This document shows positions 14,933 through 37,361 of a DNA stretch of 64,000 bases, in pieces (positions within the stretch are counted from its first letter, which is position 1; each line of letters starts with the position of its first letter). The notes below the pieces were generated by a model that saw nothing but the letters and a program-made list of their open reading frames with translations, had not been told where the DNA came from and did no database searches. Source of the stretch: Spisula solida (Eukaryota; Mollusca; Bivalvia; Venerida; Mactridae); NCBI GenBank assembly GCA_947247005.1, contig OX365955.1, positions 16,597,322 to 16,661,321 on the forward strand. The letters are read 5' to 3'. Position numbers and translations under genes: made by a program.

Positions 14933-14962
14933 GCAATTCCATCTTGTTTATTTCACCACAAA

Positions 14963-14978
14963 GGTCCTTTTCAGGACC
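14963..14978 (+). terminator. Histone 3' stem-loop, H1 unit 3
   Basis: GGTCCT-TTTC-AGGACC, the H1 version. Confidence 0.93.
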
Positions 14979-15784
14979 ATTCATGTATTTTCCATTGAAT
15001 TTACCTCTAAAATTGTCAAACTTTTATAGTTTCAGTGCTTATACTTAGGTGTGTGTTGTATCTGAAAACAATAGTCACCCTTAATATTACCCTTATTACC
15101 TTTCATTATGACCAACATGTGCAAATATAGGTTTCCCTTGTACAAACTCTCTTGAAAATGTAATAATTCAAAGTATTATCAGTGTAATTTCTGATTTTAT
15201 GTGCAGTTTGTCCCTTACAGGGCATATCATTATACTTGTAATATGGCACTGGAACAAATATATGAGTAACTGTGTGCATTTGTGCAGTGATTGTGTATTC
15301 TTCTATAATAACTACAGTCAAACAGCATCATTTCATTCATTGTCACAAAATTAAATGCATTTTCAAGTGTCTGGTACAGATGGGAACAATTTTGGTTAAA
15401 TTTCAAAACTCTCTCAAAGTGAACATATATGACCGATTTTCATAATTTTTGGATTCTCTATTAATAATTAGTCTAAATATTCAGAAAATATCACATTTTG
15501 AATGATTTAATTATAAAAAAGTCTTTTAATCACCCAAAAACTGATTTTTGGCCTTGCCTAAAATGCCTATAAAAGCTGCTCTCTGATTGGTCCAATTGCC
15601 CTAGTGTCGCACGGTGTGATTGGTCGCTTACCAGCCGAACTACCCGCTGTAAGGCCAAATCTGATTAGTTTATTTACTATCCGTTTTTGCAAACGAAAAA
15701 TGAACAGCCAATCAACGTCCAGCAAGCTAAAGCGCGGTTATATTAACTCTGCACTTTGTTGCTATCATTTCATAACTATTCTAG

Positions 15785-16207
<423 letters not shown>

Positions 16208-16236
16208 GTGTCTGTGCTTTGCACACATAACAAAAC

Positions 16237-16252
16237 GGCCCTTTTTAGGGCC
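16237..16252 (+). terminator. Histone 3' stem-loop, H3 unit 3
   Basis: GGCCCT-TTTT-AGGGCC after H3. Confidence 0.95.
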
Positions 16253-16829
16253 ACAAAACTGTTTTCGAGAGATGTACTTCTGCAAATTGTCTCAAATATT
16301 CAGCTTTATGTCCCCACACATGTCTTTAAAACAAAATATCGTATATAACTAGTTACAAAATCGTAAAACAGGCCAATATTGTTGTAAATATACCAAACTA
16401 TTCAGGGTCATTCACATATTGCTCCCTATATCACGTATAGTGCTCACTATACCAAAAATATTGCCCTTCTATCATAACTCCAAGATCGTAAACATAACAG
16501 GAATCGTAAATTATGATATACGACTTCGTAAATGTTGTACAAAATCGTAAAATCGAGTATTATGTCGTTTGAAAGTACAAAAAACGACTATTTTCGACAT
16601 TTCGTGCATATTAATTAATGCTCATACGTGAAATTGTGTTTCTACAATTTAGGGTACTACAGAATTGTAACAAAACCATTCAAAACCATTTCCATGCGGC
16701 AATATTCTCACAATTTAGCAAATAGTACATTTCTAGAGCCTAAACAGTGCAAAAAGCTGTTCTCGACGCTGATTGGTTGACGAAAAACGAGCAACCAATC
16801 AGAAACGACCAGTACTTGTGACCTACTGA

Positions 16830-17216
<387 letters not shown>

Positions 17217-17245
17217 GCACAAGATCGTACTTTCGAGTGCAAAAC

Positions 17246-17261
17246 GGCCCTTTTTAGGGCC
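17246..17261 (+). terminator. Histone 3' stem-loop, H4 unit 3
   Basis: GGCCCT-TTTT-AGGGCC after H4. Confidence 0.95.
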
Positions 17262-17875
17262 ACAAATATTCTCGAACGAGTTATTCTCCTAACATTGTCA
17301 GTGTTCTATCAATTTAATACACAAAAACATAGTCAATTGTCCCAATAATTGAATTTTCGGATGTATCTATCCGAACTTATGGTCATTTTTGTCTATTTTT
17401 CGCCTAATATCCATAAATTCTGTTTAACATTGCCTACTATAGCATTTTAAGACACAACACTATGTCTAAATTGTAATGGCTGCTCAAATTTTAACCAAAG
17501 TACCCATTATACAACAAAAAAGCATAAAACATTGGTGGAGAATACACTGTTTTGGGCCTAAAACCGTTATTATACATTGAATATGAACATTTCTTGCATT
17601 TTTATATGCACAAGCATGCCCAAATTATATTAAACATCACATTTGTACATCTTAAACAGAACATAAGTGCAATATGAGCCAAAATGTTGTTTTACAGGCA
17701 TGAAAATTTTCTAAGTGTCCATTTTACGCGCACCTGCTAGCTGAAAATTGAACAGCCAATCAGAATGCAGCATTTGTGTACCAGGTTCCGTAAGTAGGTC
17801 AATCCGGTTTTGCGGACCAGCTCCTCATATATAAAGAAACTCGATTTGCTGTCGGTATTCATTCCCTGAATAATC

Positions 17876-18250
17876 ATGGTTGCTAAAGGTGTTGCAAGCA
17901 AAGGAAGCAAGAAGGCCGCCACCAAGGCAAAGGCCGCAAGATCTACTGACAAGAAACGAAGGAGGAGGAGGAGGGAATCCTACTCTATCTACATCTACAA
18001 AGTGTTGAGACAAGTGCACCCAGACACTGGTGTATCAAGCAAAGCCATGTCCATCATGAACAGCTTTGTCAACGACATCTTTGAGAGAATTGCTGCTGAG
18101 GCTTCAAGACTCGCTCACTACAACAAGCGATCAACCATCACCAGCAGAGAAATCCAGACAGCTGTCAGACTTCTGTTGCCCGGTGAACTCGCCAAGCACG
18201 CCGTCAGCGAGGGTACCAAGGCTGTCACCAAGTACACCAGCAGCAAATAA
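17876..18250 (+). CDS. H2B: Histone H2B, unit 3
   Basis: Same coding sequence as the other H2B copies. This is the last complete H2B; only C-terminal remnants follow, near 23650 and 33550. Confidence 0.98.
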
Positions 18251-18282
18251 ACATTTGCTGTCTAGTGCATTTACAACAAAAC

Positions 18283-18298
18283 GGCCCTTTTTAGGGCC
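18283..18298 (+). terminator. Histone 3' stem-loop, H2B unit 3
   Basis: GGCCCT-TTTT-AGGGCC after H2B. Confidence 0.95.
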
Positions 18299-18875
18299 AC
18301 TCATCTTATTTCGATTGAGTGCTTCTTATACTGATTGTTTATACGTTTACTCTATATACACTGTGTCCCAATTAATATATAAATTTTTAATACAACCCAT
18401 TCAAGTCCTGTAAAATGCATCAGATATTATATGATATACATGAAAGTGCATGAAATAACCCAAGATAGTTACATATTAATACAAAGAATGCGTTTATAAC
18501 CTCGTTTTGTCAACCCCAATATTGCCCCAAAACACCGTACTTTAGATCCCTATTATCGCTGTATAATCCTATGTATTAACATAAAATATATGTTTTTAGA
18601 CAATATGTACCCTGTTCTTTCCAAAAATCCACATAAAAACTTCGAAAAGTTGTAAATAAGGGAAAAAAGGGGTGCCGAAACGGCCTATAGTAGCTTGTCT
18701 CTGATTGGCTGAAATGCCCTAGTCTCGCGCATCGTGATTGGTCGGCGTTTTAGTGCACCTGCACTGAACCCAGCGTTTTGTAAGTAGGTCAATCCGATTC
18801 CTGGGGGTATATAAGGCAAAAAATCAAAATTGCGATCATTATTCTCTCTCTCCTGAACGAATAACACTTGCAATT

Positions 18876-19250
18876 ATGTCTGGACGTGGTAAAGGTGGAA
18901 AGACAAAGGGAAAGGCAAAGAGCCGTTCCAGCCGTGCTGGTCTGCAGTTCCCCGTAGGAAGAATTCACCGTCTTCTGCGAAAGGGTAACTACGCTGAGCG
19001 AGTTGGTGCCGGAGCTCCAGTCTACTTGGCCGCTGTTTTGGAATACTTGGCAGCTGAAGTACTCGAACTTGCAGGAAACGCAGCCAGAGACAACAAGAAG
19101 ACAAGAATCATCCCCCGTCACTTGCAGTTGGCTATCCGCAACGACGAGGAATTGAACAAACTTCTCTCGGGTGTCACCATCGCCCAGGGTGGTGTTCTGC
19201 CAAACATCCAGGCAGTTCTCCTCCCCAAGAAGTCAAAGGTTGCCAAGTAA
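18876..19250 (+). CDS. H2A: Histone H2A, unit 4
   Basis: Protein and nucleotide sequence match units 2 and 3. This is the last intact H2A in the window. Later H2A-like promoters at 23280-23466 and 24140-24278 are not followed by an H2A coding region. Confidence 0.98.
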
Positions 19251-19279
19251 AGGGCAGACCCTTTATTCTACATCAAAAC

Positions 19280-19295
19280 GGCCCTTTTTAGGGCC
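19280..19295 (+). terminator. Histone 3' stem-loop, H2A unit 4
   Basis: GGCCCT-TTTT-AGGGCC with acgaaagga downstream. Confidence 0.95.
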
Positions 19296-19431
19296 ACTAA
19301 ATCTTTACGAAAGGACTTGATCTCACTTTGTCAAAACCAAACCAATTAATAATAGTTCCCTATAGTATATATAAGGCCCATGTTGTTTTGTCTTTGTTAC
19401 CTTATGTATATATATGTATGTGTATGTGTGT

Positions 19432-19669
19432 GTGTTCGGGAAAGCATTACAATGGATCCGGTAAACGTGTTTTCGAGTAGATCCGGCTCTCGTAGTGTAT
19501 GCATACTGGTGGTACCAGAGTCTTATTGATCTGGTGTACTTACTGTGTGGGTATATGGATCATGTATATGCAATGTCCCTGTGTCTTGTATATCCTAGCT
19601 TGGTGCTATACGGATACCGGATCTACTCCAAAATACGTTTACCGGATCCATTCTAATGCTTCCCAACAC
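19432..19669. mobile_element. Foldback MITE-like element, unit 4
   Basis: Same element in the same position, both arms complete. Confidence 0.7.
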
Positions 19670-20631
19670 TCACTATATAATATATATACTCACTTGTAGA
19701 CTCACTTTGTTACTGTTCTGTTCTATTCTGTTATGTTGTGTTCTGTTGTGTTCTGTTGTGTTGTGTTCTGTTGTGTTGTTCTATGTTATAAATGTGATAT
19801 GTGATGTTCAATACTGGTGTTGGTATCATGCTTTTGTACTTCCATTATGTTCATCATATGCATATTAAAAGCTGGAAGCTGGAACTTAGTTTGTGTCTTT
19901 TTCCCGCCTATTTAGGTTATTGCTACCAAAATGGCGGCTCCCTGGTCATCTAAAAAACGGTCACATATTCATTATTTACGATAAAAGGAAACTTTTTTTT
20001 ACATAAATGCAAAGTTAAGGGTTGTCGACCCCTGATTGACTACCATTACCATGTCAGTAATATGTAAAAACACAGTTTAACTAAAAGTCTACTCAAGTTG
20101 CACACGGCCAAATAGACTTGTGTTTCTTCCCCGCCCCCAAAACGCTGATATTTTCATTTTCTGACCGAATCTGGTCAAACTTTTTGCTATTAGTCTTCAC
20201 CATACGAACCACTCTGTCGATTTACGACCATATAACACGGATATAACGCGTTTTCGTGAAAATATTGGCGAAAAACCAATGCTACAACCGTCTCAGCAGC
20301 GGTCGCAGCTCACTCTAGCGACCCTATTTCTCCTCATAATTTTGTTGGGTTTGATTTTATAGGAAAAACAACGCCACGGCTGTGTAGCGGCATGTCTAAG
20401 CTTCGCCTAGATGCCAAACTTTATGGGTCTAACACATATATTAACGCCACAATCACGAAAAATGTATGTTGGAGAAAACACACTATACAGTAAACGCACA
20501 TCGCGCACCTGCAGTATTTCGATCCCGTCCGCGCGCCCATTTTTTCTCACCGCGACTGACCTACTTACCGATATATTGAGTCCTGTACTGTTCGAACGTA
20601 ATCATTCTGTTCTCAACAACACGAAACGAAA

Positions 20632-21210
20632 ATGACTGACACCGCTGCTCCCGCTAAAGTGAAGAAGGCTACCAAGCCTAAAACAGCACCAGCTCACCCC
20701 AAGTATAGTGAGATGGTTGGCGCTGCCATTGGTGCACTGAAGGAACGAAGTGGTTCATCTAGACAAGCTATCCTCAAGTACTGTCAAGCTAACTACAAGC
20801 TCGGGGATAACGTAACTGCCGTCAACGCACGTGTTAAGCAAGCCCTGAAGTCTGGTGTGAAGAGTGGTTCCATCAAGCAGGCCAAGGGAACCGGTGCATC
20901 CGGATCCTTCAAACTTGGAGAGGTCAAGAAAGCAGCCAAGAAGGCCACCAAGCCTAAAGCTGCCAAGCCAAAGAAGGCAAAGACACCCACCAAGAAGAAG
21001 CCTGCAGCCAAGAAACCAGCTGCCAAGAAAGCTGCCAAGCCTAAAGCCGCCAAGGCAGCCAAGAAACCAGCTGCAAAGAAAGCCAAGACACCTAAGAAGG
21101 CTGCTGCCAAGCCAAAGAAGGCCACCAAGTCACCAAAGAAGACTAAGGCAGCTGCCAAGCCAAAGAAGGCAAAGACACCAAAGAAGGCTGCTGCTGCTGC
21201 TAAGAAATAA
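20632..21210 (+). CDS. H1: Linker histone H1, unit 4
   Basis: Same protein as the other H1 copies and same silent haplotype as units 2 and 3. The H1 tail pseudogene at 31808 instead carries the unit 1 tail variant (aaggct). Confidence 0.97.
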
Positions 21211-21240
21211 GCAATTCCATCTTGTTTATTTCACCACAAA

Positions 21241-21256
21241 GGTCCTTTTCAGGACC
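21241..21256 (+). terminator. Histone 3' stem-loop, H1 unit 4
   Basis: GGTCCT-TTTC-AGGACC, the H1 version. Confidence 0.93.
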
Positions 21257-22062
21257 ATTCATGTATTTTCCATTGAATTTACCTCTAAAATTGTCAAACT
21301 TTTATAGTTTCAGTGCTTATACTTAGGTGTGTGTTGTATCTGAAAACAATAGTCACCCTTAATATTACCCTTATTACCTTTCATTATGACCAACATGTGC
21401 AAATATAGGTTTCCCTTGTACAAACTCTCTTGAAAATGTAATAATTCAAAGTATTATCAGTGTAATTTCTGATTTTATGTGCAGTTTGTCCCTTACAGGG
21501 CATATCATTATACTTGTAATATGGCACTGGAACAAATATATGAGTAACTGTGTGCATTTGTGCAGTGATTGTGTATTCTTCTATAATAACTACAGTCAAA
21601 CAGCATCATTTCATTCATTGTCACAAAATTAAATGCATTTTCAAGTGTCTGGTACAGATGGGAACAATTTTGGTTAAATTTCAAAACTCTCTCAAAGTGA
21701 ACATATATGACCGATTTTCATAATTTTTGGATTCTCTATTAATAATTAGTCTAAATATTCAGAAAATATCACATTTTGAATGATTTAATTATAAAAAAGT
21801 CTTTTAATCACCCAAAAACTGATTTTTGGCCTTGCCTAAAATGCCTATAAAAGCTGCTCTCTGATTGGTCCAATTGCCCTAGTGTCGCACGGTGTGATTG
21901 GTCGCTTACCAGCCGAACTACCCGCTGTAAGGCCAAATCTGATTAGTTTATTTACTATCCGTTTTTGCAAACGAAAAATGAACAGCCAATCAACGTCCAG
22001 CAAGCTAAAGCGCGGTTATATTAACTCTGCACTTTGTTGCTATCATTTCATAACTATTCTAG

Positions 22063-22485
<423 letters not shown>

Positions 22486-22514
22486 GTGTCTGTGCTTTGC
22501 ACACATAACAAAAC

Positions 22515-22530
22515 GGCCCTTTTTAGGGCC
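22515..22530 (+). terminator. Histone 3' stem-loop, H3 unit 4
   Basis: GGCCCT-TTTT-AGGGCC after the last intact H3. Confidence 0.95.
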
Positions 22531-22985
22531 ACAAAACTGTTTTCGAGAGATGTACTTCTGCAAATTGTCTCAAATATTCAGCTTTATGTCCCCACACATG
22601 TCTTTAAAACAAAATATCATATATAACTAGTTACAAAATCGTAAAACAGGCCAATATTGTTGTAAAACAAATATATGAGTAACTACATGTGCATTTGTGC
22701 AGTGATTACGTATTCTTCTATAATAAATACAGTCAAACAGCATCATTTCATTCATTTTCACAAAATTAAATGCATTTCAAGTGTCTGGTACAGATGGGAA
22801 CACTTTTGGTTAAATTTTAAAACTCTCTCAAAGTGAACACACCAGGCCGATTTTTATAATAATTTTTGGATTTTCGATTAATACTTAGTCTAAATATTCA
22901 GAAAATGTCACATTTTGAATGATTTAATTATGAAAAAGTATAATAATCACCTAAAAACTGATTTAATGCCTTGCCTAAAATGCCT

Positions 22986-23466
22986 ATAAGAGCTGCTCTC
23001 TGATTGGTCCAATTGCCCTAGTGTCGCACGGCGTGATTGGTTGCTTACAAGCTGAACTACCCGCTGAAAGGCCAAATCTTATTAGTGCATTTTCTTCTTG
23101 TGCCAAGTTTTATGGGTCTAATACAAAAACACAGTAGCTTAGATCCTTATTATCGTTATATAATCCTCTATGTTAACATAAGGTATATGTTTTCAGACAA
23201 TATGTACTCTGTTTATGCGAAAAATCCACAAAAACCGAGAAAAGAAGTAAATGAGCGGAAACGTCTGCTGAAACGAATTATAGAAGCTTGTCTCTGATTG
23301 GCTGAATTGTCCTAGTCTCGTGCATCGTGATTGGCCGATGTGAAAGTGCACCTGCACGCAGTTCAGGGTTTGCTAAGTAGGTCATTACGATTTCAGGGGT
23401 ATAAAAAGCTAAATTTAACGAATTGTGATCATTATTCTCTCTCGTGAACGGATAACACTCGCAATC
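22986..23466 (+). pseudogene. Mosaic of orphan H3 and H2A promoters, copy A
   Basis: An H3-type promoter (two ATTGG boxes, 22986-23095) is not followed by H3. It runs into a scrap like the H1 upstream region (gtgccaagttttatgggtc), then the end of the H2B-H2A spacer. A full H2A-type promoter follows: ATTGG boxes, CTAAGTAGGTCA at 23373-23384 and TATAAAA at 23400-23406. The H2A-type leader ends at the ATG at 23467. Confidence 0.8.
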
Positions 23467-23739
23467 ATGCCTAGGAAGATAGCAATATGGTGGAATGATG
23501 AATGTCACACTGCAATTAAAGCCAGGGAAAAAGCCTACCATAAGAAAAAGACAAAAGAAACACCGATTAATGTTGAAAATTGGAAAATTTTAAGAACTGA
23601 AGCATCTAAAATAATTAAAAAAGCTAAAAGAAAAAGCTTGAAAAATGTCTGCAGTGGTGAACTCGACAAGGATGCCGTCTGTGAGGGCACCGAGCTGTCA
23701 CCAATTACACCAGTAGCAAATTTAACAATTGCTGTCTAG
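23467..23739 (+). CDS. Chimeric ORF: H2A start, LINE linker, H2B C-terminus
   Basis: Intact 90-codon ORF starting at the ATG that aligns with the H2A start, behind a near-complete H2A promoter and leader. Residues 7-60 (IWWNDECHTAIKAREKAY and onward) match the endonuclease-to-reverse-transcriptase linker of non-LTR retrotransposons, recognised by the WWNDEC motif, the conserved R/A spacing and a basic KKAKRKS helix. The H2B C-terminal helix follows in the H2B frame (GEL-K-AV-EGT). A 1-base deletion then shifts the frame to a new end, SPITPVANLTIAV. The H2B stem-loop is deleted here. It is probably a rearrangement product rather than a working gene, but it is open and has a plausible promoter. 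Confidence 0.45.
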   Translation: MPRKIAIWWNDECHTAIKAREKAYHKKKTKETPINVENWKILRTEASKIIKKAKRKSLKNVCSGELDKDAVCEGTELSPITPVANLTIAV

Positions 23740-23756
23740 TGTATATACAACAAATT

Positions 23757-24278
23757 TCGATTGAATGCCTCTCATACCGATTGTTAATACTTTAGTTTAT
23801 ATACACTGTTTCCCAATTCATATATATTTTTAATACAACCCATTCTAGTCTGGTAAAATAAATCGGACATTACACGATATACATGCAAATGCATCAAATA
23901 CCCTAAAAAGTTGCATATTAACACAAAGAATGCGTTTATAACCTCGTGTTGTCAATCCCAGTATTTCCCCAAAACACAGTACTTTAGATCCTTATTATCG
24001 CTGCATAATCCTATGTATAAACAGAAGATGTGTTTTAGACAAAATATATATCTTATTAATATTGCCAAAAATCTACACAAACCTAGAACAGTAGTAAATA
24101 AGGGAAAAGGGGTGCCGAAACGAGTTATAGTAGCTCGTCTCTGGTTGGCTGAATTGCCCTAGTCTCGTGCATCGTGATTGGTCGGTGTTCAAGTGCACCT
24201 GCACTGAAACCTGCGTTTTGTAAGTAGGTCATTCCGATTTCTGAAGTATAAAATGGAAAATTTCAAAAATTCCGATCA
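23757..24278 (+). pseudogene. Decayed H2B-H2A spacer and second orphan H2A promoter, copy A
   Basis: Follows the H2B-H2A spacer in order, then an H2A promoter (ATTGG boxes, GTAAGTAGGTCA-like motif near 24222, tataaaat near 24247). Homology stops at ccgatca just before the leader, and no H2A follows. Confidence 0.8.
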
Positions 24279-24927
24279 CATGTCAAATTTGAGCAATTGT
24301 TGTCCATTCTTGAGCAAATTAATTGTAATTTTATAAAAAAAATCACACCCCGAGCAAACTAAGCCGGAGCGGAGTATGTGAAACACGCGATGGCTAGGTC
24401 AAACAATAGACTAATACAATGAGAAACCTAGGTCAAGTAAACAATAAGAAGGTTAATAAAACAATTTAACCAATCTAGACTGACTAACCCAAAATTAAAC
24501 GTTATAGGGCGATATCACTCGGCATTTAGTAATTATAAACATTAAAATTAACAATATAATCAACTGGACCTCATATCTACCATCGTTTTCATTACAATAC
24601 ACTTTGAACTTTCTTTTGGAAAGTTTTCTGTGATTTTTAACCTTTTCCCAATTCTATAATAGAATCTATGTATTTTTAATCAAGAATTATATTAGAATAA
24701 TTTTAATAGAAAGTTATTATGTTCTTCTTTACGGGTTGTTAATACTTTTAAAAACATAGGACTCTAAAATTACGTAATAAATCCGGCTTTATTATTATTA
24801 TTTAACAACAGCAAAGACCTAAATATACTATTGACTACAGTTTTTCAAAGAAAATAATAGAGAAATTTATTTAAAAGAATTATTTGGACTGGTCGCAGTA
24901 TTTTTGACCTAAACATAAGCGAATAAG
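24279..24927. other. Unassigned AT-rich sequence, copy A
   Basis: No gene or repeat recognised. It is conserved in copy B at about 34203-34854, so it was part of the duplicated segment. Confidence 0.6.
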
Positions 24928-27900
24928 CATATCCAACTATTTGTCTCATTTGTATTGAATGTGTTTTCAAGTCGACCACAGTTACCTTCCCTTGACTGGT
25001 GTTATACCGGTTATAATCTGATCGATCTTATCTCGATTGCGTAATCGCGCTATGCTAACTCAGCGGGTGGTCGGAGTGTATAAATTAATGTATATCATTT
25101 GCTGGAGGGGTTTTTTGCGTTCAGTTACACTTTGGTGTTTTTGACATTTTGTATATGATGCATACCAGGATCTTTTTTATGGGCATATCTCTGTCATTAT
25201 GAAATTTTGTTCATAAGGTAGGTATCATCAGGAACATTTAAATATGCTTCCATGGTACTATTCAGAATTCGTTGATCATGTGTGAGGAATCTAACAATTA
25301 TGCATTTGATATACTAGTAACCGCAATACATGTCACGATATGTATACTTATTATCATGCATATTCGATGGATGATAAAAAAATAAACGGTTACTAGTAAC
25401 TGTACAATGCTTGAGTATGTGTGCAATATCACAAAGTACAGTTTAAATGAAATTTAGCAACCACTGCTGATTTTTCAAGTATGTTGTACGGTTGATAGAC
25501 CATACAATTATGGAACTGGTTTTTTAATATCTTGAAAAATAAAAAAGTTATGACAATTTTAAGTTCGTGAAATAGAGCGTTCTTTTCTTGAATTAAATAG
25601 GAGAATATTCGCGCGGTAGCGGACCCGACAAAACTCAAATTTTCCCTCTAATTGTCACAAATATTTTATTTTTTTCAAGATATTGGGATGAAACATTTGT
25701 TTAACTTATTTATGTTGGACAAGTGCTTTCAAAGTTATGAAGAGTTGAAATGTTAAACAAATACTAAATCAGTTTTCATTGTTTTAATTAAATCATAACA
25801 TCAATCATATAACCAACAAAGTCATATATTCATTTTCAAGTTATCACAAAATGTAGTTTGGCTATTTTGACCTGAACCTGACCTTTATGCAAGACTATAT
25901 TACAAGGTTCTTGCTTTGAATACATGAATATCAATTTCCGCAAGCAAGTCGTTCGATATCGGTATTTCAAATTTGTGTTTCTATTACATCTCGAGCTACT
26001 TCGTGATACTCCCCGATTATGAAATATATTGTGATAATATATTGACTGTTAAATTCTGCTAGTCAATTCATCATCCTGATTTTTTAAAATAATGAGTAAA
26101 ATACTTAAAATGGATTTAATCACATCAGCAATTTATATCTGAATATGAATTTGTGCTTTTATCAGACTTGTTATAATATATAGACTGTAGACTGTGGCTT
26201 GATTTATGATGCGTTATATGCCGTGGAATTCCCGGTGACACCCGCAATAAAAGTTACAGGGGTTTGTTTACGAATACATGTATTGTCTTATTATAGCAAA
26301 AAGGATGTATCTACAAATGAAAAAAGAAGGCAGATAGAAACTTTATATAAACGCATCTTGAATGATACTTACTGTTTTATTTTTACATTGTGGTTATAGG
26401 TATCAGCGATGCGACCATACATGTATGATAAAAAAATATTTATGATACTTATTATACGAATATGAAAGTTTACTTTGCATGAAGCATAAAACAATGCTTA
26501 TAACAAATAACAATGATTGAAAACATAAATTTTCAGGAGAAAAAACCTAATATATATGATTAATTAATATATAGAATGTTCGAATCCCAACTGGCTTCGT
26601 AATCTGTCTGGTCAGAGCAGACGCGCTTTATTCCTCTAGCCGGGCTATAGTTAAGTGATTATCATTAAAAGATACGCATATTATTAGCAATATATAAGCA
26701 AGTACATGTATACTGTAAATGAACCATAAAGCTATAACGCACATGTATTTAATCTGCCTTAGGGTAAAACCACGGAAATACATTAGACGGAATGGCAACT
26801 CATTCAACTCCCACTATTTTCCTATATAGGCCGCCATAATGGAATGAAATATCGCGATCGGCTTACTTGTACGAGACTTAGCGAGACTTGACGAGATTCT
26901 CAAGTTGGCGCTATTTTTCCCGCTAGCCGCCGCCATCTTGGATTATTTCACCAATTCAGCCTGATTTGTCAATGAGATATTTGTTTTCATTTAAAGCAAT
27001 TCTTCGTCTAAATAAGCAAAGATGGGTGTTTATTTGTTCCGTTGTGTGTTTGGAACGTTTTTAAATAGATAGTCTGGACGATTCATCTGTCAATTGTGAC
27101 ATAGACCACATTTTCTGTGACCTATCCTGGTCGATAAATTTTCAATCGACGGGTTTTGGATTGCTTCCGATATTTACTTTTTTAAATCCCTAAGGAAACT
27201 TATTTGCGACTGTTTTTCTTATAAATCAATATTTTTTGTGATCTTTGGGGTGTCCTCTATTTGTTGAAAATGATCAAACCACTTAGTTTTGTGGTTTTGA
27301 CACGAAAAAAAGATTTCTTTTGGATAAGCCATGTTCACAATTATCGTGCTTACCGAAGCGCGCAATGCATTATGGGTAGTCAGGTCATAATTAGGCTATT
27401 TTTAGACCTGCTTATCCGTTCTGTGTATATCCGTGGTAAAACATACATTTCAACATCTGAATTCATGCCTCTAAAAGTATACGGATTTTTTCTCACCTTT
27501 TTTGACGTTTAATTTTCATTTTACAATTCGTATATATTCAATTAGGTGGTACAACGTGTCAATTAACCAGTTTATTTATTAAGTGTCATAGGAATGACAT
27601 GATTCTTCATTTTTATGTCTCACCTGTTCGATTATTATAATTTTAAATTATGCGTGAGCTTATGACATTTCACTTTTAATCATTTTAATGCATGTATTAC
27701 TTTCCAAATCGGCAATAAAGTCAAAGTTTCAAATCTCTAAAATCATAATAAAGTATGTATACAGGAAATATAGCGGTTATAACCCTTCACGCGAATGTAC
27801 CACTTTTATTACCCCACATGCTGTGACAATCGCAGCGGGGCGCGTCATAAAACAATTAACAATGTGCAAATTAAATATGTGTATTACTTTTTACTAAAAA

Positions 27901-28338
27901 AAAAAGATACCTGTTTTAAAAAACCGTAAAAAGGGGGCAGATCTAATAATCACATTTCTTATATCAAAACACCAATCTGACGGGAAGAAATTAAACTATT
28001 AATCAAGTTTGCACAAAATATATTCCCCGAGAAACAAAAGAACTACGAACAAGAAAGTAACCAAGTTTGATATCAAATCCGTTCAATTCCTTCTTTGTTC
28101 AATGTGAGTGATAGTCATGTTAAAAACCTTTAAAAAGGGGGTTGATCCCATAAAGATACAACTATGAAATTTAGTGCATTATATTGTAGACATATCAAAC
28201 TACAAAATATGTTTGCACATAAGAAATATCTCAAATAGTTATTATCATATGGACAATTTTACGTGGAGTCCCCATGCCTTCCAATGGTAGAAAAATTGTC
28301 ACATGTGCGAATACAAATGGGACAAATAGTTGGATATG
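24928..28338. mobile_element. 3.4 kb TIR DNA transposon, non-autonomous
   Basis: Terminal inverted repeats of 29 bp with one mismatch (24928-24956, catatccaactatttgtctc; 28310-28338, its complement). Copy B has the exact empty site at 34854/34855, which makes this a well-defined insertion or excision. The junction shows no target-site duplication: the left flank gcgaataag and right flank gttaaaag join directly in copy B. No transposase-like ORF is seen inside, so I call it non-autonomous; the superfamily is unknown. Confidence 0.8.
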
Positions 28339-28560
28339 GTTAAAAGACGCCCGTCTTATGTCCGATAAAGAGATACATAGCCATAGTAGTTGAAAAAAGG
28401 CGATATTCAAGCGGAAGAGGACCATCCCCCAACATCACTCCATTACCATTACCACAACTTCCGGAACCTCATCTTCCAGCAAAAGTTATAAGAAGTTCCC
28501 CAAACCTTCTGATATTCCCATGTTTGAGGGATTGGATGGGGCGATCTACAACAACAAAAA
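28339..28560. other. Start of SGNH-associated block, copy A
   Basis: Begins with a palindromic motif, aagacgcccgtctt (about 28346-28359), followed by tgtccgataaagaga. Similar palindromes recur at the far end of the block near 30660, 30738 and 30787. Confidence 0.5.
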
Positions 28561-28806
28561 ATGAAGGCACGAGGAATCGTCGACAAGAACAACAACTACT
28601 ACACCCAGATTCAGCTGCGTTCTCGGCACTTCGGCATCCCGTCCGAATATTCCAACAGCACCCGTCCGGTCCGCTTCGTTGCACCAGTGCGTGCGTCCGA
28701 GCACCAGTCCGAGTATGTAGACCTTGCGCCAGTCCATACAATGGCACATGTGCTAGTCCGGTCTGCACACCTTTCCGCAACCAGACTTTCACTTTATGTA
28801 AAATAA
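28561..28806 (+). CDS. Small ORF of unknown function, copy A
   Basis: 81-codon ORF starting MKARGIVDKNNNYYTQIQ. It is open in both copies of the segment with two amino-acid differences (Y to S, H to R). I do not recognise a domain. Other frames are also open here in both copies because the region is GC-richer and recently duplicated, so coding is not established. A diverged, non-open relative of this stretch seems to lie at 30852-31200. Confidence 0.25.
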   Translation: MKARGIVDKNNNYYTQIQLRSRHFGIPSEYSNSTRPVRFVAPVRASEHQSEYVDLAPVHTMAHVLVRSAHLSATRLSLYVK

Positions 28807-29491
28807 GAACCTTTGGACTGTTATTGACACAATTTGGAATTATAGTGTCGCAAATATATGTCTTTTGGTGGTAATGATTGGCACAAGATTGTCGTTTTTA
28901 AAGAACAACTGTAAACTGCCAAGTAGGAGATACAAATGCTCTAGACCTCAGAGGTCGATTTTTGTGTATATATAAATAAAATAAATAAATCCATTTCCTT
29001 AAGCTTGTAGATGAATTATCCACCAGACAAATTTACCCCGTTTAGACCATTTTCATGCAGCAACGACATGAAGGGGTACATGTCAATGTTACGACTTATC
29101 TAGTTACTTCCCTTGACTAAACAGTATGCACATGCCATACGTCGTTACTCCCCTTGACAACATACAATTTTAAGGTGTTACAACTGCTCCATCGTTATGT
29201 AAAGAACCAAATACTTAAATAATAGGAAATGTTAAGCATACATACTAATTAATCAATTAGGGATTAAAATTACATACTTGTTTAGGATCAATTACTTCAT
29301 ATTAAACAAACAAATAAACATTTATTATTAATTAATAGATCTACTGTAGACACATAGGTAAAACATAAATTATTAAATTCTAATGCATAAATTGATTTAC
29401 CGGGTCCCAACCTAGGATACTCTCATCAGGCCATACACCCCCCCATAATAACTAGACAATACGAGTAGCTATTCTCCCATGTATATGTGGT

Positions 29492-29507
29492 GGCCCTGAA
29501 AAGGGCC
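29492..29507 (-). terminator. Histone-type 3' stem-loop after SGNH ORF, copy A
   Basis: On the - strand it reads GGCCCT-TTTC-AGGGCC, preceded by CCCCAAC and followed by ACCACA, matching the animal histone stem-loop consensus including flanks. GGGAGAAT, a possible U7 target, lies 13 nt downstream (29471-29478). The loop (TTTC) is the type found at the local H1 genes, while the stem is that of the core histones. Confidence 0.85.
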
Positions 29508-29541
29508 GTTGGGGTGGCATTATTTAGAAGCCTAAAAAGCT

Positions 29542-30087
29542 CTAAAAATGACCGTAGGCAGCAATAAGTGTCTGTCGCAGCTTCAGTAATATGCAGCGCA
29601 TCCCCTCAACATTCAAATGAACCTGGTCCGGGGCAACGTGCTTAAAGTACCTAAGTTTAGGAAGCCTCACCAAATCACGGCCATACCACTTGGCCAGCCT
29701 TCTACTTACGTTGATACGCTGTCTATCAAAGCATTCCTGTGTCAGACCAGGACACTTACGGAAATCTCCCCGGGGGGTGATCTCGACTATGTAGATTTGG
29801 CTAACTCCGCCTCTACGAATAGTCTCCACCAGGTGACAAATCTGGTGGAAAATGTCCTTATGCCTAGACACTGGGGTAATGTCATTGCCACCCAGCATGA
29901 CAATAACAACTGTCGGCTTAAACTCGAGTAGCTCCCCCAAAAGGCGTTGATCATAGCGCTCTGTGCTCATACCGTCCGTTCCATAGAATGAGGTGGTATA
30001 GGGAGGGTACAGCTGGGTGCCGGTCTTCTCCAAATATTCCCCAAGTCTCCGTACAAAGCTATCGCCAAAAACTGCAAGTCTAGGCAT
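29542..30087 (-). CDS. SGNH/GDSL hydrolase-like protein with histone-type 3' end, copy A
   Basis: 181-residue protein with the SGNH hydrolase blocks: GDSF with the nucleophile Ser near residue 10, GGND at 66-69 (oxyanion Gly/Asn), and DQVH at 154-157 with the catalytic Asp and His. The family includes esterases and lipases, and SGNH domains also occur in some retroelements (CR1/L2-type ORF1, Ngaro-type). The gene is intronless. TATATAAG (30126-30133) lies about 40 nt before the ATG, with CCAAT motifs further up (about 30182 and 30200). A consensus histone stem-loop starts 35 nt after the stop. The layout is that of a replication-dependent histone gene. Substrate and role are unknown. Confidence 0.75.
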   Translation of the reverse strand: MPRLAVFGDSFVRRLGEYLEKTGTQLYPPYTTSFYGTDGMSTERYDQRLLGELLEFKPTVVIVMLGGNDITPVSRHKDIFHQICHLVETIRRGGVSQIYIVEITPRGDFRKCPGLTQECFDRQRINVSRRLAKWYGRDLVRLPKLRYFKHVAPDQVHLNVEGMRCILLKLRQTLIAAYGHF

Positions 30088-30125
30088 GGTAGTTGGAATA
30101 ATGAGGGCTACAGGTCAGCATACAA

Positions 30126-30133
30126 CTTATATA
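30126..30133 (-). promoter_or_regulatory. TATA box of SGNH gene, copy A
   Basis: TATATAAG on the - strand, 39-46 nt upstream of the ATG, implying a leader of only about 10-20 nt. Confidence 0.6.
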
Positions 30134-30852
30134 GCCAAATGTCAAAATGTAAATTTATTACCCGTCACAAACAGTAACATGCCAATTATAACTGCCAATA
30201 AGGGTAGTGTCTACCGATACAATCAATAAAGACTGAGCAGTCTGGAATATAGATGACATATAATCTAGGCGCCGTCACCTCACCACCTATGATAACACCT
30301 ATGTGGGGACATGAGAAAACCCGGTAAATCTAAAAATAAAATTAAAAATAAAACGTAAAGATTAATTAAAAAAAACTTAACCTACGTAATTGAACATAAT
30401 TTCATCAAGAATTATTAGTTGGAATCATAAAATTTGATATAAAAATAAGGAAATTTAAGTGTTCATATACCAAGCAGCATCATTTTTTTATCATTATAAA
30501 TATAATTATTTTTGATAGGAATATAAATTTTTACAACTATTCTTATAATTAGTGCTAGGGTTACCATTAGCATATTATTATTATAAGTAAAAGAACAAAT
30601 CCACACAAATATGTTTCGATTGTTTAATAATTTAATTTAATAAGTCTAAGTTGAAGGGACGCACGTCTCAGTCAGAGCTTGAGAACAAGTTTACTTAATT
30701 GTCTTAGCCAGAACAAGAGAGAAGTAAGTTAAAAGACGCATGTCTTAGTCCGAGTAAGAAGTAAGTTAGGACAATTAAGTAAGAGACGCGCGTCTCAGTC
30801 CGTGAAAGAGAAACGGAAGCAAAGAAACTGGAGTAAGGCGCCGGTGGAAAGG
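30134..30852. other. Region upstream of SGNH gene, copy A
   Basis: AT-rich, with no gene. Near its far end are three palindrome-centred repeats (ggacgcacgtctcagtc near 30658, aagacgcatgtctt near 30736, gagacgcgcgtctcagtccg near 30784). Confidence 0.6.
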
Positions 30853-31807
30853 TGAACGTCAACAAACATCTTCCAGACCTTCAAGAAATACCATCTTCCA
30901 GATCTTCACACAAGGTCAAGCCACATCACCTCTACAAGAAATTCCCATACGCTCTCCAATCTACTCAGCTCAACTGGGTTTTGCGGAGGGGGTTGGGTAA
31001 TCTACAAGCTGCCAACTACACAGAGGAGGCGTTCCGGGGAGTGGAATAACCAATAGCTGTCAAGTTTCTCCAAAATTTAAAACAACACCAGTCCGTGTCC
31101 GGCCCGACTCGTATCGCTGCATCCGTCCGTGAGTCTAAGCGGTGAGCTCCAGTCCGAGTCCTAGTCGGCGGTTCCCTCTGGGTTGCCGTTGGCGGGGCTG
31201 TGCATTATCTTACTGCTACTTCTAAGACCCCAAGGGACGCAACTCATATCAAAATAGGCAAAGTAAAAAGATACAAATGCTCTAGATCTCATTGGTCGAT
31301 TTTTGTATCTACATTAAACAACACAAAAAGTAAACATTTGGCTAAAGCTTGAGACAAATTATCGGCAAAATAAATTTACCCTGTTCCGAACATTTTAACT
31401 TTCTCGACATGCAGGGATACATCCCGTGGTCCTACAAAATACCGAGATTAGACTATAGATCTCGGCAACTAGCCAATCAGCATGGAGAAAAAGTGTTGAA
31501 TAAATCCCGTATGCAACACTTTGCTGTGGTATATATAACAAAAGATTGCTATATACTATAGAAGGCCAAGCAAAATAATTGAGCATAGCTATAATAATTT
31601 ATACATGCATTTAGCACAGAAAATGTGGATGCCAAAATTTTTGATACCAAGCTTTGTTTAGACTATAATATAACAATACTATATTGTAAACAAGTAACTA
31701 ATTGGACTTATTAGAATACATGTATATCAAACCTTTTTACGTTTGTTCATAATTACTGTCATAATCTGAGACAACAATTTTGATAGATAATTAACCAATT
31801 AAGGTAT
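30853..31807. other. Between the two duplicated segments
   Basis: The first part (30853-31430) is a diverged copy of about 28400-29080: both contain tccgtccg-rich text, the phrase gatacaaatgctctaga, and the run aaatttaccc. The rest (31431-31807) is AT-rich with no recognised feature. Confidence 0.55.
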
Positions 31808-31966
31808 TGCCAAGGCAGCCAAGAAACCAGCTGCAAAGAAGGCTAAGACACCTAAGAAGGCTGCTGCCAAGCCAAAGAAGGCCACAAATCACCAAAAAAG
31901 ACTAAGGCAGCTGCCAAGCCAAAGTAGGCAAAGACACCAAAGAATGCTGCTGCTGCTAATAAATAA
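31808..31966 (+). pseudogene. H1: Histone H1 tail pseudogene
   Basis: The last ~53 codons of the H1 tail, beginning gccaaggcagccaag. It has a frameshift (gccacaaatcacc for gccaccaagtcacc), a premature stop (aagtaggca) and aataaataa at the end. It carries the unit 1 tail variant (aaggct). There is no globular domain upstream. The stem-loop at 31997-32012 is broken by C to A in the stem. Confidence 0.92.
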
Positions 31967-32033
31967 GCAATTCCATCTTGTTTATTTCACCACAAAGGTA
32001 CTTTTCAGGACCATTCATGTATTTTCCATTGAA

Positions 32034-32611
32034 TTTACCTCTAAAATTGTCAAACTTTTATAGTTTCAGTGCTTATACTTAGGTGTATGTTGTATCTGAA
32101 AACAATATTCACCCTTATTATCACCCTTATTATCTTTCCTTATGACCAACATGTGCAAATACAAATGCATAGGTTTCCCTTGTACAAAATGTCTTGAAAA
32201 TGTGATAATCCAAAGTATTATTAGTGTAATTTCTGATTTTATGTGCAGTTTGTCCATTACAGGGCATTATACTTGTTATATGGCACTGGAACAAATATAT
32301 GAGTAACTACATGTGCATTTGTGCAGTGATTACGTATTCTTCTATAATAAATACAGTCAAACAGCATCATTTCATTCATTTTCACAAAATTAAATGCATT
32401 TCAAGTGTCTGGTACAGATGGGAACAATTTTGGTTAAATTTTAAAACTCTCTCAAAGTGAACACATCAGGCCGATTTTCATAATAATTTTTGGGTTTTCG
32501 ATTAATACTTAGTCTAAATATTCAGAAAATGTCACATTTTGAATGATTTAATTATGAAAAAGTATAATAATCACCTAAAAACTGATTTAATGCCTTGCCT
32601 AAAATGCCTAT
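32034..32611 (+). other. Decayed H1-H3 spacer, copy B
   Basis: Aligns with the functional H1-H3 spacer with scattered substitutions and small indels. No gene. Confidence 0.8.
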
Positions 32612-33056
32612 AAGAGCTGCTCTCTGATTGGTCCAATTGCCCTAGTGTCGCACGGCGTGATTGGTTGCTTACAAGCTGAACTACCCGCTGAAAGGCCAAA
32701 TCTTATTAGTGCATTTTCTTCTTGTGCCAAGTTTTATGGGTCTAATACAAAAACACAGTAGCTTAGATCCTTATTATCGTTATATAATCCTCTATGTTAA
32801 CATAAGGTATATGTTTTCAGACAATATGTACTCTGTTTATGCGAAAAATCCACAAAAACCGAGAAAAGAAGTAAATGAGGGGAAACGTCTGCTGAAACGA
32901 ATTATAGAAGCTTGTCTCTGATTGGCTGAATTGTCCTAGTCTCGTGCATCGTGATTGGCCGATGTGAAAGTGCACCTGCACGCAGTTCAGGGTTTGCTAA
33001 GTAGGTCATTACGATTTCAGGGGTATAAAAAGCTAAATTTAACGTATTGTGATCAT
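32612..33056 (+). pseudogene. Mosaic of orphan H3 and H2A promoters, copy B
   Basis: Same H3-promoter, scrap and H2A-promoter mosaic as in copy A, almost unchanged. The H2A leader is interrupted by the insertion that follows. Confidence 0.8.
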
Positions 33057-33322
33057 ATAAATAATTTTTAATATATATACATAGAATATAAATAGTTTTT
33101 AATATAAAGACATACATATATAGATTTTAATTATACAAATAGATACAAATAGATACACATATATAAACATAGCGTTCATTCTAAATAGTATTAGTACACA
33201 CGCAAACATTCTAAAATAGATAATTTTAATATAGTCTAAATAAAGAAAGCAAACTATAAAGATAGAGAATGCTCGCCCATATGGGTTATCCCGGTGGCGA
33301 GGGTAAATAAATCCAACAACTG
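33057..33322. mobile_element. 266 bp insertion with 11 bp target duplication
   Basis: Present in copy B only. Flanked by attgtgatcat at 33046-33056 and 33323-33333; copy A has a single attgtgatcat there. The insert is AT-rich and ends in a small hairpin, gctcgccc...ggcgaggg, near 33271-33302. The length and target duplication suggest a SINE or other retrotransposed piece, although no poly(A) tail or RNA polymerase III box was seen. Confidence 0.7.
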
Positions 33323-33367
33323 ATTGTGATCATTATTCTCTCCCGTGAACGGATAACACTCGCAATC

Positions 33368-33639
33368 ATGCCTAGGAAGATAGCAATATGGTGGAATGAT
33401 GAATGTCACACTGCAATTAAAGCCAGGGAAAAGCCTACCATAAGAAAAAGAGAAAAGAAACACCGATTAATGTTGAAAATTGGAAAATTTTAAGAACTGA
33501 AGCATATAAAACAATTAAAAAAGCTAAAAGAAAAAGCTTGAAAAATGTCTGCAGTGGTGAACCCGACAAGGATGCCGTCTGTGAGGGCACCGAGCTGTCA
33601 CCAATTACACCAGTAGCAAATTTAACAATTGCTGTCTAG
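33368..33639 (+). pseudogene. Chimeric H2A/LINE/H2B ORF, frameshifted, copy B
   Basis: Same chimera as at 23467, but one A is missing in the gggaaaaag run near residue 20 (gccagggaaaagcc), so the frame is broken. Unlike copy A it keeps the H2B-derived stem-loop downstream. Confidence 0.85.
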
Positions 33640-33655
33640 TGTATATACAACAAAC

Positions 33656-33671
33656 GGCCCTTTTTAGAGCC
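33656..33671 (+). terminator. Mutated H2B stem-loop, copy B
   Basis: ggccctttttagagcc: one stem pair is lost (C opposite A). In copy A the whole hairpin is deleted. Confidence 0.8.
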
Positions 33672-34202
33672 AATCAACTAATTTCGATTGAATGTCTCTC
33701 ATACCGATTGTTAATACTTTAGTTTATATACACTGTTTCCCAATTCATATATATTTTTAATACAACCCATTCTAGTCTGGTAAAATAAATCGGACATTAC
33801 ACGATATACATGAAAATGCATCAAATACCCTAAAAAGTTGCATATTAATACAAAGAATGCGTTTATAACCTCGTGTTGTCAATCCCAGTATTTACCAAAA
33901 CACAGTACTTTAGATCCTTATTGTCGCTGCATAATCCTATGTATAAACAGTAGATGTGTTTTTAGACAAAATATATATCTTATTAATATTGCCAAAAATC
34001 TACACAAACCTAAAACAGTAGTAAATAAGGGAAAAGGGGTGCCGAAACGAGTTATAGTAGCTCGTCTCTGGTTGGCTGAATTGCCCTAGTCTCGTGCATC
34101 GTGATTGGTCGGTGTTCAAGTGCACCTGCACTAATACCTGCGTTTTGTAAGTAGGTCAATCCGATTTCTGAAGTATAAAATGGAAAATTTCAAAAATTCC
34201 GA
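33672..34202 (+). pseudogene. Decayed H2B-H2A spacer and second orphan H2A promoter, copy B
   Basis: Counterpart of 23757-24278, with the promoter motif GTAAGTAGGTCA kept exactly near 34148 and tataaaat near 34173. No H2A follows. Confidence 0.8.
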
Positions 34203-34854
34203 TTACATGTCAAATTTGAGCAATTGTTGTCCATTCTTGAGCAAATTAATTGTAATTTTATAAAAAAAATCACACCCCGAGCAAACTAAGCCGGAGCGGA
34301 GTATGTGAAACACGCGATGGCTAGTTCAAACAATAGACTAATACAATGAGAAACCTAGGTCAAGTAAACAATAAGAAGGTTAATAAAACAATTTAACCAA
34401 TTTAGACTGACTAACCCCAAATTAAACGTTATAGGGCGATATCACTCGGCATTTAGTAATTATAAACATTAAAATTAACAATATAATCAACTGGACCTCA
34501 TATCTACAATCGTTTTCATTACAATACACTTTTAACTTTCTTTTGGAAAGTTTTCTGTGATTTTTAACCTTTTCCCAATTCTATAATAGAATCTATGTAT
34601 TTTTAATCAAGAATTATATTAGAATAATTTTAATAGAAAGTTATTATGTTCTTCTTTACGGGTTGTTAATACTTTTAAAAACACAGGACTTTAAAATTAC
34701 GTAATAAATCCGGCTTTATTATTATTATTTAACAACAGCAAAGACCTAAATATACTATTGACAACAGTTTTTCAAAGAAAATAATAGAGAAATTTATTTA
34801 AAAGAATTATTTGGACTGGTCGCAGTATGTTTTACCTAAACATAAGCGAATAAG
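34203..34854. other. Unassigned AT-rich sequence, copy B
   Basis: Counterpart of 24279-24927. It ends at the empty transposon site (34854/34855). Confidence 0.6.
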
Positions 34855-35077
34855 GTTAAAAGACGCCCGTCTTATGTCCGATAAAGAGAAACATAGCCAT
34901 AGTAGTTGAAAAAAGGCGATATTCAAGCGGAAGAGGACCATCCCCCAACATCACTCCATTACCATTACCACAACTTCCGGAACCTCATCATCCAGCAAAA
35001 GTTATAAGAAGTTCCCCAAAGCCTTCTGATATTCCCATGTTTGAGGGATTGGATGGGGCGATATACAACAACAAAAG

Positions 35078-35323
35078 ATGAAGGCACGAGGAATCGTCGA
35101 CAAGAACAACAACTACTACACCCAGATTCAGCTGCGTTCTCGGCACTTCGGCATCCCGTCCGAATCTTCCAACAGCACCCGTCCGGTCCGCTTCGTTGCA
35201 CCAGTGCGTGCGTCCGAGCACCAGTCCGAGTATGTAGACCTTGCGCCAGTCCGTACAATGGCACATGTGCTAGTCCGGTCTGCACACCTTTCCGCAACCA
35301 GACTTTCACTTTATGTAAAATAA
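35078..35323 (+). CDS. Small ORF of unknown function, copy B
   Basis: Counterpart of the 81-codon ORF at 28561. Same length and frame, two residues different. No domain recognised. Confidence 0.25.
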   Translation: MKARGIVDKNNNYYTQIQLRSRHFGIPSESSNSTRPVRFVAPVRASEHQSEYVDLAPVRTMAHVLVRSAHLSATRLSLYVK

Positions 35324-36007
35324 GAACCTTTGGACTGTTATTGACACAATTTGGAATTATAGTGTCGCAAAAATATGTCTTTTGGGGGTAATAATTGGCA
35401 CAAGATTGTCGTTTTTAAAGAACAACTCTAGACTGCCAAGTAGGAGATACAAATGCTCTACGCCTCAGAGGTCGATTTTTGTGTATATATAAATAAAATA
35501 AATAAATCCATTTCCTTAAGCTTGTAGATGTATTATCCACCAGACAAATTTACCCCGTTTAGACCATTTTCATGCAGCAACGACATGAAGGGGTACATGT
35601 CAATGTTACGACTTATCTAGTTACTTCCCTTGACTAAACAGTATGCACATGCCATACGTCGTTACTCCCCTTGACAACATAAAATTTTAAGGTGTTACAA
35701 CTGCTCCATCGTTATGTAAAGAACCAAATACTTAAATAATAGGAAATGTTAAGCATACATACTAATTAATCAATTAGGGATTAAAATAACATACTTGTGT
35801 AGGATCAATTACTTCATATTAAACAAACAAATAAACATTTATTATTAATTAATAGATCAACTGTAGACACATAGGTAAAACATAAATTATTAAATTCTAA
35901 TGCATAAATTGATTTACCGGGTCCCAACCTAGGATACTCCCATCAGGCCATACACCCCCCATAATAACTAGACAATACGAGTAGCTATTCTCCCATGTAT
36001 ATGTGGT

Positions 36008-36023
36008 GGCCCTGAAAAGGGCC
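36008..36023 (-). terminator. Histone-type 3' stem-loop after SGNH ORF, copy B
   Basis: GGCCCT-TTTC-AGGGCC on the - strand, 35 nt after the stop, with flanks CCCAAAC and ACCACA (even closer to consensus than copy A) and the same GGGAGAAT downstream. Confidence 0.85.
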
Positions 36024-36057
36024 GTTTGGGTGGCATTATTTAGAAGCCTAAAAAGCT

Positions 36058-36603
36058 CTAAAAATGACCGTAGGCAGCAATAAGTGTCTGTCGCAGCTTC
36101 AGTAATAAGCAGCGCATCCCCTCAACATTCAAATGAACCTGGTCCGGGGCCACGTGCTTAAAGTACCTAAGTTTAGGAAGCCTCACCAAATCACGGCCAT
36201 ACCACTTGGCCAGCCTTCTATTTACGTTGATACGCTGTCTATCAAAGCATTCTCGTGTCAGACCAGGACACTTACGGAAATCTCCCCGGGGGGTGATCTC
36301 GACTATGTAGATTTGGCTAACGCCGCCTCTACGAATAGTCTCCACCAGGTGACAAATCTGGTGGAAAATGTCCTTATGCCTAGACACTGGGGTAATGTCA
36401 TTGCCACCCAGCATGACAATAACAACTGTCGGCTTAAACTCGAGTAGCTCCCCCAAAAGGCGTTGATCATAGCGCTCTGCGCTCATACCGTCCGTTCCAT
36501 AGAATGAGGTGGTATAGGGAGGGTACAGCTGGGTGCCGGTCTTCTCCAAATATTCCCCAAGTCTCCGTACAAAGCTATCGCCAAAAACTGCAAGTCTAGG
36601 CAT
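36058..36603 (-). CDS. SGNH/GDSL hydrolase-like protein with histone-type 3' end, copy B
   Basis: 181 residues, same length and same catalytic blocks (GDSF, GGND, DQVH) as the copy at 29542. Four residues differ (T42A, Q117R, S128N, I166L), none of them catalytic. I count six nucleotide differences across the ORF, two of them silent. TATATAAG lies at 36642-36649. Because both copies stay open with motifs intact while neighbouring histone remnants decay, the ORF may be selected or recently duplicated; the two cannot be told apart here. Confidence 0.75.
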   Translation of the reverse strand: MPRLAVFGDSFVRRLGEYLEKTGTQLYPPYTTSFYGTDGMSAERYDQRLLGELLEFKPTVVIVMLGGNDITPVSRHKDIFHQICHLVETIRRGGVSQIYIVEITPRGDFRKCPGLTRECFDRQRINVNRRLAKWYGRDLVRLPKLRYFKHVAPDQVHLNVEGMRCLLLKLRQTLIAAYGHF

Positions 36604-36641
36604 GGTAGTTGGAATAATGAGGGCTACAGGTCAGCATACAA

Positions 36642-36649
36642 CTTATATA
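36642..36649 (-). promoter_or_regulatory. TATA box of SGNH gene, copy B
   Basis: TATATAAG at the same distance from the ATG as in copy A. Confidence 0.6.
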
Positions 36650-37361
36650 GCCAAATGTCAAAATGTAAATTTATTACCCATCACTAAACTGTAACATGCC
36701 AATTATAACTGCCAATAAGGGTAGTGTCTACCGATACAATCAATTAAGACTGAGCAGTCTGGAATATAGATGACATATAATCTAGGCGCCGTCACCTCAC
36801 CACCTATGATAACACCTATGTGGGGACATGAGAACACCCCGTGGTTAACTAGGAAAACCCGGTAAATCTAAAAATAAAACGTAGATCAATTTAAAAACTT
36901 AACTTACGTAATTGAACATAATTTCATAAAGAATTATTAGGTGGAATCATAAAATTTGATATATAAATAAGGAAATTTAAGTGTTTATATACCAAGCAAC
37001 ATCATTAATGAGTATAAATATAATAAAAAATTATTATTATTGATAGGAATATAATTTTTTACAACTATTCTTATTATTAGTGCTAGGGTTATCATTAGCA
37101 TATTATTATTATAAGTAAAAGAACAAATCCACACAAATATTTTTCGATTGTTTAATAATTTAATTTAATAAGTCTCAGTTGAAGGGACGCACGTCTCAGT
37201 CAGAGCTTGAGAACAAGTTTACTTAATTACTCACTCACTGAATTAAATTAAGACATCTGTCTTAGCCCGAACAAGAGAGAAGTCTAATAAGAGACGCACG
37301 TCTCAGTCCATGAAAGAGAAACGGATGCAAAGAAACTGGAGTAAGGCGCCGGTGGAAAGGT

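Follow-up and report, generated by a model that had tools for sequence, protein, structure and literature searches.

Stem-loop mRNA is described, in the cited portions of PMC2642717, PMC3156773 and PMC9526256, as a property of histones. Searches of the open-access literature, judged by titles and abstract openings, yielded no non-histone gene with a stem-loop ending. The gene considered here lies in a stretch of 64 kb (G000:C13:16597322-16661321; the whole stretch is called the window) of a 932-Mb genome in 36 contigs. It resembles replication-dependent histone genes in being intronless and in having a TATA box, a stem-loop near the stop codon, a purine-rich element and the motif TTGTC at about +33. 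It differs from them in encoding a predicted esterase of the SGNH type and in lacking GTAGGTCA at 75-92 nt upstream of the start codon. H2AX-type genes outside the clusters also have a stem-loop ending and, according to the cited part of PMC9526256, are likewise kept apart from the replication-dependent genes of the clusters. H2AX is a histone, whereas the SGNH gene is a non-histone gene.

The Texim genes of fish, captured by Helitrons, resemble a second SGNH family of this genome (family B, as opposed to family A of the window) in that a predicted SGNH hydrolase gene is spread by a DNA transposon, as the cited part of PMC4021074 describes it. The likeness meant here is one of description, and unlike the Texim carrier that of family B is bounded by terminal inverted repeats and 9-bp duplications. 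The abstract of the Texim account does not mention a histone stem-loop (PMC4021074).

Two SGNH genes at the edge of a histone array

Histone quintets in tandem occupy the first part of the window; all five gene types lie on the + strand, each with its own stem-loop (Table 1). The 120 listed relatives of its H1 include, where an organism is named, Mytilus, Dreissena, Crassostrea, Saccostrea, Aplysia, Nucella and Babylonia, along with one bacterial bin. The genome is most likely that of a bivalve. Two duplicated blocks, each carrying an SGNH gene on the - strand, lie where the array decays at its edge. A 42-bp repeat forms an inverted array at 38425-39716.

Table 1. Positions of the features in the window, counted from its first letter
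Feature	Position	Strand	Remarks
Histone quintet tandem array	1..22666	+	H2A, H1, H3, H4, H2B; period ~6.28 kb
Decaying array edge	22666..34854		pieces matching the H1-H3 stretch/spacer and the H2B 3′ stretch; surrounds SGNH copy 1
Duplicated block with SGNH copy 1	28334..30853		matches 34850-37361 at 95.4%
TTGTC element, copy 1	29455..29459	-	+33 past the stem; common to histone genes
Histone 3′ UTR stem-loop RF00032, copy 1	29467..29512 (core 29492-29507)	-	35.9 bits
Purine-rich GGGAGAAT, candidate histone downstream element	29471..29478	-	13 nt past the hairpin
SGNH/GDSL ORF, copy 1	29542..30087	-	181 aa; ATG to TAG, no intron needed; Pfam Lipase_GDSL_2
TATA box TATATAAG	30126..30133	-	46 nt upstream of copy 1 ATG
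Duplicated block with SGNH copy 2	34850..37361		~2.5 kb, like its partner
TTGTC element, copy 2	35971..35975	-	+33 past the stem
Histone 3′ UTR stem-loop RF00032, copy 2	35983..36028	-	35.6 bits
SGNH/GDSL ORF, copy 2	36058..36603	-	181 aa; 98% identical to copy 1

An earlier, sequence-only reading of this DNA had described one of the two genes as an intronless ORF of 181 codons with GDSF, GGND and DQVH blocks. The ORF call and a Pfam match to Lipase_GDSL_2 of 47.2 bits (46.2 bits for copy 2; cut-off 32.9) agree with that description, and by Pfam the product is not a histone. The tandem copy with a hairpin of its own, the adjoining histone array and the TTGTC element had gone unmentioned; the three blocks are present in both copies. 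Ten database relatives of the protein were found at 34-47% identity, and the four of them that are named all belong to Dreissena polymorpha. The residues G66-D69 are invariant across the 12 rows of one alignment (A1). In a second (A2), G8, D9, D154 and H157 are invariant in 8/8 rows and the Ser of the GDS block in 7/8, with Asn in P0001, one of the ten relatives; this alignment found no relatives in viral contigs. The predicted model of the protein (pLDDT 86.3) has the three-layer alpha/beta/alpha SGNH fold and matches GDSL hydrolases and PAF acetylhydrolase with TM-scores of about 0.6-0.75. The fold search gave 97 PDB matches with E<=0.001, and the 50 listed mostly bear the names of lipases, esterases, thioesterases or acetylhydrolases. 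The window genes are predicted to encode an SGNH-fold esterase, whose substrate, to judge by the fold relatives, might be a small lipid or sugar ester.

Family A occupies five main places in the genome, and of these only the two window copies are intact. L031 stops short at residue 135, L032 carries frameshifts, and both have lost the 3′ end; L037, a decayed relative of 49% identity, has no hairpin. The sequence-only reading had named a consistent lack of the hairpin in other copies of the ORF as a refutation of itself. This applies in part: the other three family-A places are without one, L031 and L032 because their 3′ ends are lost. L025, a 35-residue SGNH fragment of 51% identity, was scanned for RNA families only. 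Copies 1 and 2 differ by three silent and four replacement changes, giving a dN/dS of 0.40 from only 7 changes, and the window copies compared with the 3′-truncated L031 give 0.33-0.35 over 135 codons. These ratios point to selection on the SGNH protein.

TATA boxes lie 42-46 nt upstream of the ATG in both SGNH families (for family B as in L033), and the one proposed earlier for the window gene was found as TATATAAG. Two genes of a helical protein family treated below (L046, L047) have no TATA box near the ATG. With at most one mismatch, GTAGGTCA occurs 75-92 nt upstream of the ATG in four of the five histone genes (H2A, H1, H4 and H2B; not H3). It is absent at that distance from the non-histone genes: family A has it only at -298 and -285, and family B has none within 300 nt of the ATG. 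The common feature of the two sets of genes is therefore the 3′ end and not the cluster promoter.

The 3′ end of the SGNH genes

The hairpin of copy 1, GGCCCT-TTTC-AGGGCC with the flanks CCAAC and ACCAC, lies 34 nt past the stop codon on the same strand. It had been taken for a histone-type hairpin, and RF00032 bears this out, with scores above the Rfam cut-off of 34 bits in both copies. The E-value of copy 1 is 9.6e-07 for the whole window and both strands, which makes a chance hairpin unlikely. The histone genes of the window score 37.9 (H4), 36.3 (H3), 34.0 (H2A), 29.9 (H2B) and 28.2 bits (H1), so that both SGNH ends score higher than three of these five, namely H2A, H2B and H1.

The purine-rich element reported downstream of the hairpin was also recovered as GGGAGAAT, with a purine run of 7 whose background chance is about 0.07 per 20 nt. 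The longest purine runs past the stem are 4 in family B, L044 and L050, and 3 in H1, H4 and H2B. The purine element is weak evidence for a histone-type end because such runs are short and, whether or not the gene encodes a histone, of uneven length. According to the cited part of PMC6210712, some but not all histone genes of the clam Lucina pectinata have purine-rich elements near the palindrome. The search for U7 RNA with RF00066 gave no match in this genome, nor in any control genome.

TTGTC lies at +33 past the stem in H2A, +35 in H1 and H3 and +34 in H4, and at +33 in family A and +34 in family B; H2B has TTGTT at +37 instead. As a 3′ signal it was first seen by eye in this genome and is not a published criterion, and the histone and non-histone sets were for that reason tested apart. 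Among the pentamers at +31..+38, a range set post hoc, ATTGT and TTGTC tie as the commonest, occurring in 4/5 histone and 6/9 non-histone genes, the latter not all independent since two SGNH and five helical genes are among them. The chance expectation for TTGTC is 0.012 per gene. The exact motif is missing from this range in H2B, L044, L051 and L043. We know of no described role for TTGTC after a stem-loop. Its spacing is near-fixed, at about +32 to +37, in most of the genes read, whether histone or not.

Sequence comparison supports well the assignment of the 3′ end of the window SGNH genes to the histone type, and we infer that SGNH transcripts may use it. The two tandem intronless SGNH-esterase genes would probably give transcripts that are cut past the stem-loop by SLBP and U7 and are not polyadenylated. 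SLBP would bind the stem-loop, U7 would pair with the purine-rich element and cleavage would fall a few nucleotides past the stem. The SGNH mRNA would be stable only with SLBP present, mainly in dividing or germ-line cells. Transposition and segmental duplication could have spread a gene with such an ending through the genome.

The transcripts could also be polyadenylated as a rule, the stem-loop being used in some cells, as in H2AX, of which stem-loop and poly(A) forms are both described in the cited part of PMC9526256. Such dual use would fit the AATAAA on the coding strand about 215-220 nt past the stop, but the window sequence has no AATAAA between the stop and the hairpin, and we consider it possible though unlikely.

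Stem-loop genes elsewhere in the genome

In the genome-wide search with RF00032, 75 of 142195 first-look candidates were scored, and the census is therefore a lower bound: at least 37 matches, at least 34 of them over the cut-off. Classed by position and by reading of the pieces, these 34 comprise 18 histone genes or remnants (17 in the array and one H4-derived copy elsewhere, L045), the two window SGNH genes, ten family-B loci, three helical genes and L043. The helical gene L048 (32.5 bits), the H4 remnant L049 (31.5) and the ORF L050 (30.5) fall below the cut-off. The hairpin pattern had no match in viral contigs. The sequence-only reading had held the signal to be essentially confined to replication-dependent histones, and for this genome that cannot be maintained, with a second SGNH family and the helical family also having it. 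Its proposal of a non-histone gene packaged with a histone-type 3′ end gains from the same recurrence.

The window SGNH protein has 35 matches in the genome. The Rfam scan covered 31 of them (C11:5154266, C12:22208926, C9:40523717 and C8:23844170 were left out) and found a hairpin at cut-off in the two window copies and in five family-B rows (L006, L007, L016, L017 and L030, 31-32% identical to family A over the matched parts); the other 24 have none. The family-B stem-loop lies on the same strand, 14 nt past the stop. The ORF is intact in two of the ten family-B hairpin loci (L006 and L007) and damaged or shortened in six (L016, L017, L030/L058, L052, L054 and L056, the last with six codons only); at L053 and L055 the frame read shows nothing clearly SGNH. 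With the family-B protein as query there are 48 matches, the further rows read being L059, a decayed copy that has lost its 3′ end, and L060, a decayed copy without hairpin. The nearest relative of family B, L038 (61%), is intact and has no hairpin, with an AATAAA about 190 nt past the stop. L038 and L060 argue against the hairpin always being kept. The protein tree, built to tell a single gain of the hairpin from two, leaves seven of nine inner branches open.

Four family-B loci read at length (L033-L036) share kilobases of sequence and have inner inverted satellite arrays. In L034 and L035 both ends were read, and they carry terminal inverted repeats and 9-bp target duplications. Family B is mobile and is carried in a DNA transposon, with the ends expected of the cut-and-paste kind. 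The length of the duplication would suit a Mutator-like element; a transposase was not seen among the ORFs read. The SGNH relatives L041 and L042 stand beside long ORFs that by eye resemble a reverse transcriptase and a tyrosine recombinase.

Non-LTR retrotransposons carrying an esterase have reportedly been described (PMC3905857), which places such an enzyme in a mobile-element setting. The window differs from them in having no reverse-transcriptase-sized ORF among its 25 ORFs of at least 120 aa, a search that covers intact ORFs and not broken remnants. For the retroelement origin once suggested for the window gene no evidence was found, and family B rides a DNA transposon.

The stem-loop genes might then be relics of mobile elements, in which the hairpin would serve the element (e.g., by keeping its RNA stable in germ cells that divide) and the SGNH protein would be cargo or a transposition helper. 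The transposon around family B, its ten hairpin loci and the neighbours of other SGNH relatives speak for such relics; the helical protein, conserved across named bivalves, suggests host genes, and we hold a relic origin to be rather doubtful.

The helical genes have no detected relation to the SGNH family. RF00032 is over the cut-off at L044, L046 and L047 and just below it at L048; identity to L044 is 43% for L047, 36% for L048 and 22% for L046. The family has 260 relatives, and among the 120 listed all rows named by organism are bivalves, of the genera Mya, Mactra, Dreissena, Ruditapes, Potamilus, Sinanodonta and Pinctada, with no described function in the names. The alignment of the family (A4) found no relatives in viral contigs or, as a contamination check, in prokaryote genome contigs. 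Of 199 candidates in the genome with L047 as query, 150 were scored, and all of these match. They include a tandem array of at least 149 copies at C4:3917600-4191017, most of them about 1.35 kb apart. The piece of the array that was read (L051) contains two units of a short gene that has a TATA box and no intron; its hairpin is degenerate, with one stem mismatch, and at 23.1 bits lies below the cut-off. A database relative, P0168, is predicted to fold into a hairpin of two antiparallel helices followed by an acidic tail modelled at low confidence, and the fold search of the family gave no PDB match with E<=0.001.

Weighing the histone-type ending

The reading as SGNH-esterase genes processed by SLBP and U7 draws its support from the stem-loop over the cut-off in both copies, from its recurrence in family B and the helical genes, from TTGTC, and, for the protein, from the dN/dS ratios and the fold. 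Several findings count against it. Within family A the hairpin is confined to the two window copies, whose blocks are 95% alike; L038 and L060 have no hairpin, and 24 of the 31 SGNH matches none at the cut-off; GTAGGTCA is absent at the distance it has in the histone genes; and the hairpins of the helical array units read are below the cut-off.

That a histone 3′ end landed behind the SGNH ORF during shuffling of the array edge, and is a passive leftover without a role in expression, would suit the histone remnants around the SGNH blocks and the family-A copies without such an end, but is very improbable, since the SGNH blocks do not match the histone units as DNA (E<=1e-5, >60 bases), the loop is TTTC in the SGNH copies (and in H1) against TTTT in the core histone genes of the window, and the same ending occurs in family B and helical genes away from the array. 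Copying of the hairpin as DNA from the neighbouring units is rejected by the lack of similarity between blocks and units, and a chance hairpin by its E-value of about 1e-6 per window together with the recurrence in other families.

If processing by SLBP and U7 is extended to all these genes, the histone mRNA machinery of bivalves may serve a second set of genes, including SGNH esterases (some of them transposon-carried) and a two-helix, acidic-tailed family with an array of at least 149 copies. Their ends would be of the SLBP/U7 type and their production would therefore follow DNA replication, in which case stem-loop mRNA would not be histone-only. We give this wider proposal an even chance. 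If different protein families do bear the signal, the pathway would be open to recruitment. Non-histone stem-loop genes would be natural substrates with which to separate the role of the stem-loop from that of the histone, and they are likely to be overlooked by poly(A)-selected RNA sequencing.

Two further loci are of note. L050 (G000:C3:41344968) has a 93-codon ORF without a Pfam match, followed by its histone-type hairpin below the cut-off and by TTGTC at +35. L043 (G000:C3:12893234) has the top stem-loop score of the genome, 39.5 bits. No upstream ORF was recognised there within about 2.3 kb, and 7 nt separate the stem-loop from the end of a possible last exon.
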